Assembly: GCA_009924545.1 (NCBI GenBank)
Contig: RFRL01000004.1
Span: 1 to 43,523 of the forward strand
DNA length: 43,523 bases
Direction of reading: 5' to 3'
From: Planctomycetia bacterium
Lineage (GTDB): Bacteria > Planctomycetota > Planctomycetia > Pirellulales > UBA1268
Below are positions 36,685-42,693 of the stretch, in pieces. Every line of letters begins with the position of its first letter. Within the stretch, counting starts at the first letter, position 1. Under the pieces are notes generated by a model that saw only the letters and a program-made list of their open reading frames with translations, was not told where the DNA came from and did no database searches. The position numbers and the translations under genes are program-made.

Positions 36685-36691
36685 GCCCGTA

Positions 36692-37384
36692 TCAGCCCGT
36701 CGACATGAGGCGTGCGACCTCCTCGCGGATCATCCGTAGCACCTTGCTGCGGGCGACGTACGCCGTGTTGACTTCCATCCCCAGCCGCGCGGCCACCTCG
36801 CGACCGGTCAGGTGCTCGAGTGCCAGGAGGCGGAACGCCTCCCAGGTGTGCGGCTGCACGCGCTGCGTCACCTGCTCCATGGCCAGCCGCATCAGCTCGC
36901 CATCGAAGGCCTCCTCCATGCGGGTGACCAGTTCGTCCCGTGCCGGCGCCGTGGCGAGGGCGGCGGCGAACCCCTGGTGATCGGTCTCCAGCCGTTCCGA
37001 CGGCGCGGTGGTGTGCCAGTCGGCGAGGACCGTGGTCACGATCCGTTTGAGGTAGTGACGGAACTTCAGAGACGGGTCGTAGTCGAACGTGCCAGCATGG
37101 CGCCAGAACCGGATGAGGACGGTTTGTGCCACGTCCTCGGCATCGGCCGCTTGGAGGCCCCGGGCCCGGCACCACCCCAGGACGGCTGGGGCATACACCC
37201 GCACGAACTCCCCCCAGGCAGCCTCACTCCCGGGCGACTCCCGGAGGGCGTGAAGCAACGACGCGCGCGTCGTGCAGGGATCGTCCATGCTGCCATCCGT
37301 TCCCGTCGGACCGGTCGTCTGCCGCCAGCCACCGGACGCCAGCCATGCGGCTGGCCTCCGATCGTTGGACAGCGCGGTGGACAT
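36692..37384 (-). CDS. ECF sigma factor, neighbour of a Ser/Thr kinase gene
   Basis: A sigma-70 family protein with region 2 (GEFVRVYAPAVLGWCRARGLQAADAEDVAQTVLIRFWRH, DYDPSLKFRHYLKRIVTTVLADW) and region 4 (WEAFRLLALEHLTGREVAARLGMEVNTAYVARSKVLRMI). It belongs to the planctomycete ECF type that is often encoded next to Ser/Thr kinases. The start is ambiguous. ATG 37384 has AGGAGGT at 37397-37403 (12-base spacing), giving 230 aa. ATG 37288 (MDDPCTTRASLL) gives 198 aa and matches where family members usually begin but has only a weak ribosome-binding site. It is divergent from the kinase gene at 37915, and regulatory interplay is likely (see that entry). Confidence 0.87.
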   Translation of the reverse strand: MSTALSNDRRPAAWLASGGWRQTTGPTGTDGSMDDPCTTRASLLHALRESPGSEAAWGEFVRVYAPAVLGWCRARGLQAADAEDVAQTVLIRFWRHAGTFDYDPSLKFRHYLKRIVTTVLADWHTTAPSERLETDHQGFAAALATAPARDELVTRMEEAFDGELMRLAMEQVTQRVQPHTWEAFRLLALEHLTGREVAARLGMEVNTAYVARSKVLRMIREEVARLMSTG

Positions 37385-37403
37385 TGCCGGCCACACACCT
37401 CCT

Positions 37404-37914
37404 CATTCCCTGAACCCCAGACACAGCATCTCTACCCGCGCTCGGCCGCCGCTGCAATCGCGATGCAGGATCGCCCGGCGGCAGTGATGGAGACCGGCGC
37501 GGTTCGGGAACGCTCTCAGGGCGGTCCGTGGGGAGCGGGTCAAGGCAGCTGGCAGAGAAGCCGCCGCTGCGTCCGGCTGCCGGGAAAGGCTGGCCTTGCT
37601 GACTCGTTGGGAGGTACCAGGCGCCACAAGCACCTGGGAACCCCATCCCGGCAACGCACAACCACAGGTCTCACCCGGTCAGTGGGGAAGACCGAAAAAC
37701 AATCAATCGCCGACCAGTCACCGGCCCGGAGGTGCCTTCAGGTTGGAAAATCCTGCTGCGGACTCATGGTGAGACCCGAAGGCACCTCCGGAGAACCTCC
37801 GGGGAGGTTCCCACCCACCTATACTGTCGGCCGAGGTCGAACCTGACAGCGCCCGGCCGATTTTCCGAAAGCCCGCAGAAACACCTACCTGAAACCCGGC
37901 ACCGAGGGCGGGTG
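37404..37914. promoter_or_regulatory. Divergent intergenic region (ECF sigma / kinase)
   Basis: About 510 bases without a supported gene. The stretch 37690-37720 is AT-rich for this genome (ACCGAAAAACAATCAATCG). The kinase-proximal part holds nested inverted repeats and a -10-like TATACT, listed separately. No tRNA or small RNA could be recognised. Confidence 0.45.
37726..37825 (+). promoter_or_regulatory. Nested GGAGGT/ACCTCC palindromes upstream of a TATACT box (kinase promoter)
   Basis: A perfect 14-base inverted repeat (arms 37726-37739 and 37778-37791, core GGAGGTGCCTTC / GAAGGCACCTCC) encloses 38 bases. Directly after it, GAACCTCC-GG-GGAGGTTC (37793-37810) is a second palindrome with the same hexamer. 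In total there are four GGAGGT/ACCTCC hexamers, two on each strand. TATACT at 37820-37825 (5/6 of a -10) follows, 89 bases before ATG 37915. The layout looks like a multi-site operator for the kinase gene. Confidence 0.45.
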
Positions 37915-40875
37915 ATGCCACGCATGCCGTCGATCACGGTCGACACTCCGCGGGCAGGCGGCTGCCCCGATCACGTCACCCTGCGGCTGTTTCTCGACGA
38001 GCAACTCGCCGAGGCGGCGCACCGGCGCGTGGTGGAGCACCTGGCGGACTGTCCCGTGTGCGACGCGGCGCTCGCGTCGCTGTCCGGTTCGGGCGCCGTC
38101 GCCGATCTGGCGGCTGTGCCCCCGAGAGAGCCATGGGCGGTCGGCCCGCACCCCGACAGTTTCGTCGCCCGCGTGGCGGGTGAGCCTCCGTCGCACCGGC
38201 CCCTCCCCCGCGGGGTGCCGGTGATCCCCGGGATCGCCGACCTCGAGCCGGTGGGCCGCGGGGGCATGGGAGTGGTCTACCGCGGCCGGGAAACCGCCTC
38301 CGGCACGACCGTGGCGGTGAAGGTGCTGTGGTCGGTGGGGGGCTTGTCGCAAGCGGCCCACGCGCTGGCCCGCCGCGAGGCGGAGGTGCTCTCACGGATG
38401 GACGATCCGGGGATCGTGCGGATCCGCAAAGCGGGGGTGTGTGACGGCGGTCCCCTCGAGCCCGGGGGCGTGCCCTACATCGTGATGGAGTGGATCGACG
38501 GCGAGACGCTCCAGTCGCGCATACGCAGCCGGGCCCTGGGTGTTTCGGCTGCGGCACGGGTGATCCGCGACCTGGCCCGGATCCTCGCCCGCGTCCACTC
38601 CCTGGGCATCGTCCATCGCGACATCAAACCAGCCAACGTGTTTCTCTTGCCGTCCGGCACCGGTGTCGGGGCGGACGCCTCCGGTCGACTCAAGCTCGTC
38701 GATTTCGGTCTCGCCCGTCGCGACGGTCCGGCCGGCGCGTTCACGCTGGAGGGGGAGCTCGCCGGGACCCCCGGCTACATGGCACCGGAACAGGCCGCCC
38801 GCGACAACGCCGCGGTTGTCGGTCCGGCCACCGACGTGTTTGGTCTGGGAGCCACCCTGTTTTTCCTCCTCACCGGGCGGCCGCCGCCGCGGCAGCGATC
38901 AGGAGTGGACGCCCTCGCGGCAACCCCGACGTGGCCGGCGGGAGCGCGACGCCTGCCGGTCGATCTGCGCACGATCGTGGAAAAGTGCCTCCAGCCCGCG
39001 CCGCTGAAGCGTTATGCCTCGGCCGGCGAGTTGGCCGACGACATCGAGCGCTTCCTCGACGGGACGCCGATCCGTGCCCGCCGGGCCGGGCTCATCGAGC
39101 GCGTCCTCAACCACGCGCGCCGGCACCCCGCGAAGGCGAGCGCTGCCGCCAGCGCGGTGGCCATGCTGGGATTCGCGGTGGTGGGCACGTGGCTGCACAC
39201 CACTCGCCTGGCGGCGTCGGAACGCGTCGCCCGCGATTCCGCACGCGCTGCCCGCGATTCGGAGCGCATCGCCCGCGACGCGGAGCGGGCAGCCAACGCC
39301 GCCCGCGAGACCGCCCGGGGAGTCGTCGCCCGCCTCACCAGCGACACGATCGGCCGGTTGATCGCCCAGGGCGCGCCCCTTGGTGGCATCAACGCGGATT
39401 ATCTTCAGGACGTCCGCACGGTCTATCGGTCGTGGCCCCTGGAGCCCGATCCCACCGCGAGTTTGCTGTTCCGCGCCGAGGGGCTCGATCGGTTGGGGCA
39501 GCTCTACGGTCGCATCCATCGGCTCACCGACGCCCGGGCATGTTTCGCCGAGGCGCTCGAGGCGCTCGCGGAGCATGATCGCCTGGCCGGTGCGGGGAGG
39601 GCCGCCGACGCGAAGCGGCTGGCGGTCTTGCTCCACGACTATGAGGTGGTCCGCGACACGTTGCCTCTCCCCGAACTGGAGGCCCTGATCCGGAGGCTTC
39701 TTGCCGAGCCGGCCGCGGCGACCGCTGAGGCTCCCCAGGGAAGGAGTTTCGCGGCGCACGCACGCGTGGGGTTGGGGGTGATCCTCGCCCGCCAGGGGCG
39801 CGGCGCCGAAGCCCGCGTCACGGTCGCGCAGGGGCTCGACGAGCTCGACCGATTGCAAGCGGCACTGCCGGATGACCCCGACGTGCGTCTGGCTCGGGTG
39901 AAAGCACTCTTCGACGCGGCTGAAGTCGCCGAGAGCGCCGCCGCTGCGAAAGAATCGCTCATGCTCTCGGTGACCGTCGCCGAGGAGTCGGGCCGGGTGT
40001 TGCCCGAGCGGAGGGACGAGTTCACTCGGAGCCTTCTCTGGTCCCTGGCAACGCTTGCCGATCTGGAGCTGCGCGAAGGGAAACCGTACGCGACCCTTGA
40101 AATCGCGCAGCGTCTGCAGGCGCTGGCCGAAGAGGGGATGGCGGCGGCCTCCGCCGATCTCTTCTACCGCGGTGAATACATCGAGGCGGTGATCCGCGAG
40201 GCGCACGCGCTGGGGATGCTGGGCCGGCCGGGGGATGCCGGGCCACGGCTCGTCGAGGCGATCGACCTGGCCCACCAGTCGATGGTCGCGGAGCCCGCCC
40301 TGGCGGTCCATGCCAAGCGCCTGGCGAAGGCGCTGCAGTGCCGGGCCGCCGGTCTGCTGGCAATGGGGCAGCGCGATGCGGCGGTGCCCGAGATCCGGAA
40401 GATCGCCGCCGTCCTCATCCCCTGGAAGGACTCTCCGGGCGAGGGGCAATTCTTCGTACCATTGATCTCCGGAGCACTGGTGGAATCCGCCCGGTTGCTC
40501 GCGGTGAGCGGCCGGCACGAGGAGGTGATCGCCGATCTGCGCACGCTCGTCGGGATCGCCCCTCTCGACCAGCGCCCCCAAGCTGCCCTGCTCCTCGCCC
40601 GGGCGGCCGTGGCGGCCGGGCACGAAGGGGTGGCACGAAAGGCGCTTGCCATCGCCATGGAGGACGCGGCCGCGCTGCCCGCCGTCCGCGAGCTCACGGC
40701 GCGGCTCGACGGGACTCCCCGGCCGGAGGCGGTCGTGACCGACGGGGCCACCGGCGGGGGAGCCACCGGCGGGGGGGCCGCTGCGGATCCTCAGCCCGGC
40801 TCCGCTTCCCGGTCGGCGTCGGCCTCGCGACCGGGGCCGGCTGACGACGCCTCGAGGGATTCCCAGCGCGAGTAG
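37915..40875 (+). CDS. Membrane Ser/Thr protein kinase with N-terminal anti-sigma-like zinc motif
   Basis: A 986-aa Hanks-type kinase. Residues 17-49 hold Cys17 and His42-x3-Cys46-x2-Cys49 (EHLADCPVCD), the HxxxCxxC layout of ZAS zinc anti-sigma domains. The kinase domain follows: GRGGMGVVYRG from 114, Lys136, catalytic Asp236 in HRDIKPANV, Asp263 in DFGLAR, and GTPGYMAPEQA. A heptad-repeat coiled coil comes after one TM helix (~412-430), and then ~500 residues of helical, TPR-like repeats outside the membrane. The C-terminus is low-complexity (Gly/Ala/Ser/Arg). The start is ATG 37915 with GAGGG upstream. It is divergent from an ECF sigma gene, and the zinc motif makes direct sigma binding plausible. 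The last 85 bases overlap the convergent ABC-F gene. Confidence 0.9.
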   Translation: MPRMPSITVDTPRAGGCPDHVTLRLFLDEQLAEAAHRRVVEHLADCPVCDAALASLSGSGAVADLAAVPPREPWAVGPHPDSFVARVAGEPPSHRPLPRGVPVIPGIADLEPVGRGGMGVVYRGRETASGTTVAVKVLWSVGGLSQAAHALARREAEVLSRMDDPGIVRIRKAGVCDGGPLEPGGVPYIVMEWIDGETLQSRIRSRALGVSAAARVIRDLARILARVHSLGIVHRDIKPANVFLLPSGTGVGADASGRLKLVDFGLARRDGPAGAFTLEGELAGTPGYMAPEQAARDNAAVVGPATDVFGLGATLFFLLTGRPPPRQRSGVDALAATPTWPAGARRLPVDLRTIVEKCLQPAPLKRYASAGELADDIERFLDGTPIRARRAGLIERVLNHARRHPAKASAAASAVAMLGFAVVGTWLHTTRLAASERVARDSARAARDSERIARDAERAANAARETARGVVARLTSDTIGRLIAQGAPLGGINADYLQDVRTVYRSWPLEPDPTASLLFRAEGLDRLGQLYGRIHRLTDARACFAEALEALAEHDRLAGAGRAADAKRLAVLLHDYEVVRDTLPLPELEALIRRLLAEPAAATAEAPQGRSFAAHARVGLGVILARQGRGAEARVTVAQGLDELDRLQAALPDDPDVRLARVKALFDAAEVAESAAAAKESLMLSVTVAEESGRVLPERRDEFTRSLLWSLATLADLELREGKPYATLEIAQRLQALAEEGMAAASADLFYRGEYIEAVIREAHALGMLGRPGDAGPRLVEAIDLAHQSMVAEPALAVHAKRLAKALQCRAAGLLAMGQRDAAVPEIRKIAAVLIPWKDSPGEGQFFVPLISGALVESARLLAVSGRHEEVIADLRTLVGIAPLDQRPQAALLLARAAVAAGHEGVARKALAIAMEDAAALPAVRELTARLDGTPRPEAVVTDGATGGGATGGGAAADPQPGSASRSASASRPGPADDASRDSQRE
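39226..39288 (+). repeat. 21-bp tandem repeat (three copies) encoding coiled-coil heptads
   Basis: Units of 21 bases encode VARDSAR, AARDSER and IARDAER just after the kinase TM helix. A fourth, degenerate unit follows (AANAARE). The seven-residue period with hydrophobic a-position fits a juxtamembrane coiled coil that could mediate dimerisation. Confidence 0.8.
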
Positions 40876-42662
40876 GTGGTGCGGAGCCGGTCTTCGAGCT
40901 CCCGCAATCGGCTCTGCTCGGCGGCGATCACATCGCGGGACTGGCGGTAGTGCTCCGGCGCCGCCAGGGCCGCGTGAAGCGCCGCCAGATCGGTCTCCAG
41001 CGACTCGATCAAAGCCGGCAGTGCCGCCAATTCCTGCTGTTCCTTGAACGACAGCCGGCGCTTCCGCGCGGCGGTCGGCGGCGGTGGGCCCGTCGGCGCG
41101 GTGTCGCCGGCACGGCCCCTTCCGGCCGCAGGCGGAGGCGGCGGCGCGGCCTGGCGCTGCCGCACCCAGTCGGCATGCCCGCCGACGTATTCCTGCACGG
41201 TCTGGCCGCCAACGCGGTCGGCGGCCGGTTCGAAGACGAGCGTGCTGGTGACGACGTGGTCGAGGAAGTCGCGGTCGTGGCTCACCACGAGCACCGTTCC
41301 GGTGAACTCCGCCAGCCGCTCCTCGAGCAGCTCCATCGTCTCCTGGTCGAGATCGTTGGTGGGCTCGTCGAGGACGATGAGGTTGGCCGGCTTGGCGAAC
41401 AGCCGGGCAAGGAGCACCCGGTTGCGCTCCCCGCCGGAGAGGAACCGCACCAGCCCCCGGGCACGCTCGGGGCTGAAGAGGAAATCCCGCAGGTACCCCA
41501 CCACGTGCCGCGGCTGGCCGGCGATGCGCACCGTTTCGGAGCCGTCGGCCACGTTGTCGGCCACCGAGCGGTCGGGGTCGAGCTGCTCCTGGAGCTGGTC
41601 GAACCACGCCACCTGGAGGTTGGTGCCCAGGCGGACGCGGCCGGTGGCGGGGGTGAGGCGACCGAGGAGGACCGCCAGGAGCGTCGACTTGCCGACGCCG
41701 TTGCGCCCGATGATCCCCACGCGGTCGCCGCGCATCACGGTGGTGGTGACGTCGGAGAGCACGCGCCGTCCCCCGCGGTCGACGGCCACCCCCTCGAGCG
41801 CCGCCACGAGGGCCCCGCTGCGCTCCGCCTCCTGGATGCGGAGGTTCACGGTGCCCGGTCGGGCGCGCCGCGCCGCCCGCTCGCGCCGCATCCCCTCCAG
41901 GGCCCGGACGCGCCCTTCGTTGCGCGTCCGCCGCGCCTTGATGCCCGTGCGGATCCAGGCCTCCTCCTCGGCGAGCCGCTTGTCGAACAGCGCCGCCTGC
42001 TTCTCCTCGGCCGCCTGGGCCTCCTCGCGCCGGGCGAGGAAGGTGTCGTAGTCGCACGACCAGTCGAAGACCCGGCCGCGGTCGATCTCCAGGATCCGCG
42101 TCGCCAACCGGCGGAGGAAGGCGCGGTCGTGGGTCACGAACACGAGCGTGCCGGTCCACCGGCCCAGAAACCGCTCCAGCCACTCGATGGCCTCGATGTC
42201 GAGATGGTTGGTCGGTTCGTCGAGGAGGAGAAGGTCGGGCTCGGCGACGAGAGCCCGCGCCAAGAGCACCCGGCGCTTCATCCCCGCCGAGAGCGTCTCG
42301 CACGCCGCGGTCCCGTCGAGATCCATTCGCGACAGGATCCGCGCCACCGCCTGATCGCGTTGCCACGCCGAGTCGTCGCCACCGGCGGGGAGCCCCGTGG
42401 CCACGATCGCGGCCACCGGCCCGTGGAGATCGGCAGGCACGTCCTGTGGCAACAGCGCGACGATGCTGCCCGGGGGGCGGGCGATCTCCCCCGCGTCGGC
42501 CGGCAACTGGCCGGCGAGGAGGCGGAGGAACGACGTCTTGCCGGCCCCGTTGCGCCCCAGGAGGCCGATCCGCTGCCCCGGCTCGATGACGCAATCGACC
42601 GCGTCGAGCAGCGCCGGACCACCGACGGACAGCGACACCCCACGGAGCGTGACGAGCGGCAT
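40791..42662 (-). CDS. uup: ABC-F ATPase, Uup type
   Basis: A 623-aa soluble protein with two ABC domains and no membrane segments. Walker A motifs are GRNGAGKT and GRNGVGKS. Signatures are LSAGMKRRVLLARAL (degenerate in the first domain) and LSGGERNRVLLARLF. Walker B motifs are LLLLDEPTNHLD and LIVLDEPTNDLD. The linker between domains is the Arg/Glu-rich helix pair of ABC-F proteins. The C-terminal coiled coil (RRLSFKEQQELAALPALIESLETDLAALHAAL) is the Uup hallmark and in E. coli Uup contacts DNA and ribosomes. Start ATG 42662 (MPLVTLRGVSLSV). It lies 31 bases after the Gfo/Idh/MocA gene on the same strand, and its 3' end overlaps the kinase gene antisense by 85 bases. Confidence 0.92.
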   Translation of the reverse strand: MPLVTLRGVSLSVGGPALLDAVDCVIEPGQRIGLLGRNGAGKTSFLRLLAGQLPADAGEIARPPGSIVALLPQDVPADLHGPVAAIVATGLPAGGDDSAWQRDQAVARILSRMDLDGTAACETLSAGMKRRVLLARALVAEPDLLLLDEPTNHLDIEAIEWLERFLGRWTGTLVFVTHDRAFLRRLATRILEIDRGRVFDWSCDYDTFLARREEAQAAEEKQAALFDKRLAEEEAWIRTGIKARRTRNEGRVRALEGMRRERAARRARPGTVNLRIQEAERSGALVAALEGVAVDRGGRRVLSDVTTTVMRGDRVGIIGRNGVGKSTLLAVLLGRLTPATGRVRLGTNLQVAWFDQLQEQLDPDRSVADNVADGSETVRIAGQPRHVVGYLRDFLFSPERARGLVRFLSGGERNRVLLARLFAKPANLIVLDEPTNDLDQETMELLEERLAEFTGTVLVVSHDRDFLDHVVTSTLVFEPAADRVGGQTVQEYVGGHADWVRQRQAAPPPPPAAGRGRAGDTAPTGPPPPTAARKRRLSFKEQQELAALPALIESLETDLAALHAALAAPEHYRQSRDVIAAEQSRLRELEDRLRTTYSRWESLEASSAGPGREADADREAEPG

Positions 42663-42693
42663 CGGATCCCCGGGCAAGCGGGCGGGCGGCAGG

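Follow-up and report, generated by a model that had tools for sequence, protein, structure and literature searches.

Among the described systems closest to the locus analysed here are MicA and RybB, two small RNAs under RpoE in E. coli (PMC8103513), and the bidirectional promoters, for which the commonest distance between the two start sites is given as 18 bp (PMC12825309). Small RNAs of planctomycetes are few in catalogues, with eight listed for the whole PVC group (PMC9029176), and the Rhodopirellula-1 motif appears without Rfam accession in the table that describes it (PMC2864571). The genomes that we searched each contain many ECF- and kinase-like matches; an RNA associated with one ECF-kinase pair would give a concrete, testable regulator. 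We describe a cluster of palindromes that has the appearance of an operator and can be reread using one distant relative. In our opinion, formed by sequence comparison, it is probably the DNA of a conserved, folded minus-strand RNA of about 93 to 140 nt, located between an ECF gene and a divergent kinase gene.

The window, i.e. the whole 43,523-nt stretch that was analysed, corresponds to contig C224 in a genome of 4.36 Mb (G000). The ECF sigma factor gene (36692-37288, minus strand; Pfam Sigma70_r2, E 5.9e-12) lies 3' of the proposed RNA on the same strand, and is 69% identical in the congener G003. The protein kinase gene (37915-40875, plus strand; Pkinase, E 2.1e-34) is divergent from the proposed RNA. 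These matches bear out the names that a preliminary description had given to both genes. The kinase begins with a zf-HC2-like segment. Against a cut-off of 22.2 bits, this segment falls short in the window, with 20.8, and passes in the congener, with 25.8; the zf-HC2 domain is typical of anti-sigma factors. When the kinase was searched in 39 genomes, the best match outside its own genome was on contig C56 of G003 (47% identical). This congener supplied the comparison locus, L022; the same element sequence is in record SXWA01000091.1, a metagenome-assembled genome. Comparisons within the genus were made on four genomes, G000 to G003, of which G002 is 97% and G001 69% complete.

As seen by direct reading and by a repeat search, the cluster begins with a perfect 14-bp inverted repeat, CCGGAGGTGCCTTC (37726-37739) and GAAGGCACCTCCGG (37778-37791), with a 38-base spacer. 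The second palindrome, 18 bases overall, is formed by the 8-base arms GAACCTCC (37793-37800) and GGAGGTTC (37803-37810) on either side of a 2-base spacer, GG, and a TATACT box (37820-37825) is found nine bases past it. There are four GGAGGT/ACCTCC hexamers, starting at 37728, 37784, 37795 and 37803. All these elements were already in the preliminary description, and re-reading confirmed them. The 14-bp repeat by itself is unremarkable, since one hundred dinucleotide shuffles of the whole window gave 10 with a perfect inverted repeat of at least 14 bp and a spacer of up to 60 bases. None of 100 such shuffles had four hexamers within 90 bp, for a hexamer that was picked post hoc; it is frequent in the window as a whole (44 observed versus 25 expected). 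Stronger support than these chance statistics comes from the conservation of the layout in one congener.

Upstream of the G003 kinase gene, L022 presents the same layout as the window, with arms of 15 bp that are 38 bases apart, a second hairpin and the sequences CCCACCCATCTATACT and AACCTGACAGCG, and the order of the ECF gene, the element, the kinase gene and an ABC-F gene is common to both. In the intergenic alignment the region 37722-37846 is 68-81% identical per 25 bases, and its flanks 0-56% (56% for the next 25 bases). Over columns 51-148 of the block alignment, 75 of 96 positions are identical, the values for coding DNA being 72% for the ECF gene and 56% for the kinase gene. The arms of the long palindrome are nearly identical in the two loci. 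The second palindrome of L022, GGACCGCCGGAGCAGTCC, differs from that of the window at 6 of 18 bases and has lost both GGAGGT and ACCTCC; taken as plain DNA it retains six of eight arm pairs, and taken as minus-strand RNA its pairing is complete. This loss of the hexamers with full minus-strand pairing argues for the evolution of a fold rather than of a protein site. It also disfavours the main reading of the preliminary description, which saw in the four hexamers the operator of a repressor or activator: such half-sites are not conserved between the orthologous promoters, where the first palindrome is kept and the second has no hexamers in L022. The first palindrome alone would be a possible operator.

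The core of the proposed RNA is 93 nt long (37723-37815, minus strand, with its 5' end at 37815) and corresponds to the outer fold predicted for both the window and L022. It would consist of a closing helix, GGU/GCC, an 8-bp hairpin and an 18-bp hairpin. The 8-bp hairpin (37792-37811, with arms at 37804-37811 and 37792-37799) is over the second palindrome. The 18-bp stem has its 5' arm at 37774-37791, which includes the second arm of the 14-bp repeat, and its 3' arm at 37726-37743, which includes the first; it reaches 18 pairs on the minus strand in both species. Both hairpins were delineated from the repeat search, the predicted fold and covariation. The apex of the 18-bp hairpin, CUCACCAUGAGUC, is invariant between the window and L022. 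The apical segment CTCACCATGAGTC (37761-37773, minus strand), identical in both species, could be modelled as a 4-bp stem with a CCA loop.

For the pair counts, the fold hypothesis was the minimum-energy fold of the minus strand of the window, nothing being taken from L022. Applied to L022, 34 of its 35 pairs could form. In the three outer helices all 29 pairs could form, with four double compensatory changes and three single changes in which pairing is maintained by G-U; the apical part, beyond the 29 outer pairs, contains the only broken pair and the other two of the five single changes. The 8-bp hairpin of L022 shows two of the double changes (A-U and U-A, each to G-C) and one pair changed from C-G to U-G, and the long stem two further double changes and two G-C/G-U exchanges. 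When the same 11 substitutions were placed at random (200,000 trials), all 29 pairs were kept in 0.07% of the trials and at least four double changes were obtained in 0.04%. Sliding the pairing partners by one to three columns gave no double change. In a third control, weak with n = 2 sequences, the 3' letters were re-dealt between the two rows, and the observed values were reached in 34 of 500 cases. Helices kept by compensatory changes, our criterion for a structured RNA, are found on the minus strand, in two sequences only.

The two strands were compared in several ways. The minus-strand folds had 1 broken pair out of 35 (window fold on L022) and 3 out of 37 (L022 fold on the window), versus 4 and 7 out of 33 for the plus-strand folds. 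Double changes support a fold and not a strand, because the plus-strand folds have them too (4 and 3). The z values of single sequences did not separate the strands (minus: -4.8 for the window and -5.7 for L022; plus: -3.1 and -6.1, respectively). The consensus energy was -67.0 kcal/mol for the minus strand versus -42.3 kcal/mol for the plus strand. In 300 shuffles of alignment columns 9-150 the mean energy was -34.6 for the minus and -25.8 for the plus strand; the observed minus-plus gap over these columns, -23.6, was reached in 1 of the 300 (mean -8.85, sd 4.68), the shuffles themselves leaning to the minus strand by 8.85 on average. Broken-pair counts and modelled consensus energies thus favour a minus-strand RNA. 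An RNA-level role had been mentioned as an aside in the preliminary description, for a plus-strand transcript started further upstream; the role has gained support, and the evidence places it on the opposite strand. The link then made with Shine-Dalgarno sequences finds no support, because the hexamers sit within stems and only two of the four are conserved.

The consensus fold adds a hairpin that spans the invariant 13-mer GCGCTGTCAGGTT (37840-37852, minus strand) and, further out, a helix formed by CGGC and GCCG, three pairs being kept by one-sided changes. A longer RNA of about 140 nt (approximately 37721-37860), closed by CGGC/GCCG, is possible according to this model. If real, it would have inside it the invariant AGTATAG (37819-37825, minus strand), which could then not be its promoter. 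We tentatively prefer the shorter RNA because no other promoter-like box was seen by eye on its 5' side. For this shorter form AGTATAG is the candidate -10 box, and its plus-strand reading, CTATACT, the candidate -10 box of the kinase gene. As judged by eye, no sequence in the block resembles a -10 box more than CTATACT does, and AGTATAG is a poorer one. A sigma-70 promoter scan of both strands of the window and L022 let no site pass, neither at TATACT, nine bases off the putative operator, nor as a -35 partner of CTATACT. The preliminary description is supported in that a conserved element does stand beside a promoter-like TATACT. The 13-mer GCGCTGTCAGGTT would be the -35 region of the minus-strand promoter, or part of an extra hairpin of the RNA, or a plus-strand site for the kinase gene. 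The search for a terminator of the minus-strand RNA gave one weak match in the window (0.8 expected) and none in L022.

Other genes of the genus gave some indication of what its promoters look like. The sequence GCTATCGT precedes the RNase P RNA gene in all four genomes, and a GGTANNNT box lies 68-94 bases ahead of the ECF match in six of eight ECF loci examined, among them the G003 ECF locus (L069), where it reads GGTATCTT. The window ECF locus has an imperfect version, GGTAGAGAT, about 145 bases upstream, and locus L074 has its sole box at 180 bases. Both GCTATCGT and GGTANNNT fit TANNNT, as does CTATACT on the plus strand; on the minus strand TAGTAT, in L022, fits and CAGTAT, in the window, does not. 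The RNase P RNA and tmRNA genes of relatives, taken as promoter references, showed by eye no common box outside the genus and gave no -35 rule. The pattern TGTCAGGTT-N12-17-GTAT had no copies in the four genomes beyond the two RNA loci. Going by these motifs, AGTATAG/CTATACT may possibly be a -10 box shared by two divergent promoters.

To sum up the computation, a fold common to two species is kept by compensatory changes, with a preference for the minus strand and the same neighbourhood in both. An operator reading would have one or more regulator dimers bound to the palindromes as DNA and controlling the kinase from the plus-strand TATACT promoter. With a start about seven bases past TATACT the palindromes would be at about -22 to -106, which is usual for activators; CTATACT is invariant and, by eye, without rival in the block, though the scans found no -35 for it, and the near identity of the long arms is also to be expected of a binding site. 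We nevertheless hold this reading to be unlikely: the altered second palindrome of L022 (6 of 18 bases, no hexamers, six of eight DNA arm pairs) pairs fully as minus-strand RNA, and neither double compensatory changes nor a strand-dependent G-U pattern are expected of a protein site. Less likely still is an RNA made from the plus strand, either as part of the kinase 5' UTR or as a small RNA ending at the T-run that follows a conserved GCCG (37856-37864 in the window) and has four T in the window and seven in L022. The double changes kept in the plus-strand folds, the z of -6.1 in L022 and the T-run itself are what such an RNA has in its favour, against a consensus energy far weaker than that of the minus strand, more broken pairs, and a conservation that ends at the left edge of the block, where no promoter-like box was seen by eye.

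The minus strand also has short frames immediately after AGTATAG (37738-37818 in the window, 1273-1329 in L022), which could be those of a small leaderless protein starting with GTG (37818) or ATG (L022 1329). A single G/A change does preserve the start codon, but the products would be only 26 and 18 amino acids long, a 2-base indel shifts the frame and, by hand count on the two frames, two of the nine substitutions before the indel are silent. These frames are probably due to chance, and a protein is very improbable. The probable minus-strand RNA can itself be understood in two ways, covered by the same degree of confidence: a separate small RNA acting in the ECF-kinase pathway, or the 5' domain of an extended leader of the ECF mRNA. 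For a cis-regulatory leader, which we find rather doubtful, speak its position upstream of the ECF gene on the same strand in both species and the lack of a clear terminator between the two. Against a leader stands the low conservation of the stretch separating the RNA from the ECF gene (window, about 434 nt; L022, about 230 nt), and the GGTANNNT-type boxes close to the ECF genes, including that of G003 and with only the imperfect copy in the window, also speak against it. Given the variability of this stretch and, in G003, the presence of GGTATCTT within it, we consider a separate small RNA somewhat more probable than a leader.

To determine how widely the RNA occurs, a covariance model, R1, was built from the window and L022 sequences, which both match it by construction. 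At E ≤ 0.01 it retrieved 2 of 72 genomes of the family and 2 of 396 genomes sampled from the order, both times G000 and G003. In both, the RNA has an ECF sigma gene on the minus strand on one side and a divergently oriented kinase gene on the other. By DNA search, the element had no further full-length copy in the 72 family genomes. Searched in the GTDB species set, the arm pattern gave four matches, the G003 record and three Desulfobacteraceae palindromes. In G002 the aligned ends of two flanking genes are 11 bases apart, and the space between these genes has no match to ECF, kinase or ABC-F; we take one of them to be a DHDPS-like gene (it has no Pfam match), and the other encodes an oxidoreductase of the GFO/IDH type. 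In G001 (69% complete) a search for the DHDPS-like gene gave no match. The whole block of ECF gene, RNA, kinase gene and Uup-like ABC-F gene (window 36685-42693) is missing in G002 (L128 8445-8457), which, from the sequences, would be the gain or loss of an entire module. RNA and module are thus present or absent together in the three comparable genomes, since the window genome and G003 have all of it and G002 none.

Other ECF loci of the genus are organized differently. Of the eight other ECF matches in G000 to G003, seven have a kinase match after them in the same direction and the eighth runs off its contig; the RNA was found in none of the six loci scanned with their flanks. The best E value of R1 on ten other ECF/kinase loci was 0.25. 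Within up to 700 bases 5' of four more kinase matches (L025-L027 and L046) there was neither an inverted repeat of at least 10 bp (spacer up to 60 bases) nor a CTATACT. Two oddities were encountered in these loci. Another ECF-kinase operon of G003 (L072 1415-1493) has a palindrome, GGAGAATACCCGGTATTCTCC, over a GGTATTCT box just 5' of the ECF gene. A kinase match in the genome of the window (G000:C119:363-2945, 42% identical) contains TGA in frame at two points along its length.

We cannot file the RNA under any named RNA family; Rhodopirellula-1 would be a candidate. Rfam release 15 gave no match above the gathering cut-off in the window; permissive scans gave six matches in L022 and eight in the window region, each below its own cut-off, the best being to a CRISPR repeat model (E 0.01, 23.9 of 39 bits). 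A literature search found no description of this element. A repeat or mobile element (REP, MITE) was rejected: there is no second copy in its own genome, where the next BLAST match covers 25 flank-side bases (E 1.6e-4) and the next best R1 match has an E value of 0.13. Phage or plasmid origin was rejected as well, with no match in phage or plasmid collections and no arm pattern in viral contigs; of the 41 viral stretches that contain the short motif GTATAGRTGGGTGGG, none fits R1 at E ≤ 1. The Desulfobacteraceae loci (L064 2544-2606, L066 659-723 and L067 313-372) are long, mostly perfect intergenic palindromes with the core GGAGGTGCCTT...AAGGCACCTCC. They score 16-29 bits with R1, mostly from the long stem, and by eye do not have the invariant apex or the AGTATAG block. 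Apparently a separate family, they were set aside as convergent, although unrelatedness is not proven. Weak R1 matches in G057, G075, G050, G051 and G000:C79 (E 0.12-0.51) were dropped as chance. The DNA matches L053 (G050) and L054 (G020) were dropped because each covers just a small piece of the element. The latter is inside a long frame, presumably Rhs-like. In L053, 28 bases (1501-1528) located 5' of a G050 gene are 93% identical to window 37824-37851, which is the region of the 13-mer GCGCTGTCAGGTT; this is either a shared site or chance. We take the G050 gene to encode a glycoside-hydrolase-57-like protein.

How the minus-strand RNA might work can be outlined as follows. It would be transcribed from a promoter around AGTATAG, and we infer its direction and 5' end accordingly from the fold and this box; the same promoter region may serve the kinase gene in the opposite direction. 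Speculatively, it would be a small RNA particular to this lineage, produced next to the ECF-kinase module and with its role in the same pathway. Some protein or RNA would recognize its apex, CUCACCAUGAGUC. Neither G000 nor G003 has another site for the invariant 13-base apex, up to one mismatch being allowed, which fits a protein or a short-seed partner better than long antisense pairing. A bolder and, we think, improbable version would make this small-RNA family a built-in third component of the module formed by the ECF sigma factor and the zinc-finger kinase, transcribed divergently off the shared -10 box, with feedback on the sigma factor or its mRNA, or else on the kinase, perhaps as a stable hairpin that binds one of these proteins directly.

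Compared with the systems mentioned at the outset, the proposed RNA resembles MicA and RybB as a small RNA tied to an ECF sigma factor, in our case only through its position: their mRNA targets and sigma dependence are known (PMC8103513), whereas what links the RNA described here to its sigma factor is a gene position beside the sigma gene. With the bidirectional promoters that share a symmetrical -10 box (PMC12825309), the locus has in common a single AGTATAG/CTATACT box between divergent units; it differs from them in that its minus-strand box is weak and a candidate from sequence alone. The Rhodopirellula-1 motif (PMC2864571) is likewise a candidate structured RNA; its table entry covers Planctomycetes and Proteobacteria. 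The nearest systems by descent are the other ECF-kinase pairs of the genus. They differ by their co-directional kinase gene (7 of 8) and by the absence of the RNA (6 of 6 scanned), but in them, as here, the ECF gene adjoins a related kinase gene.
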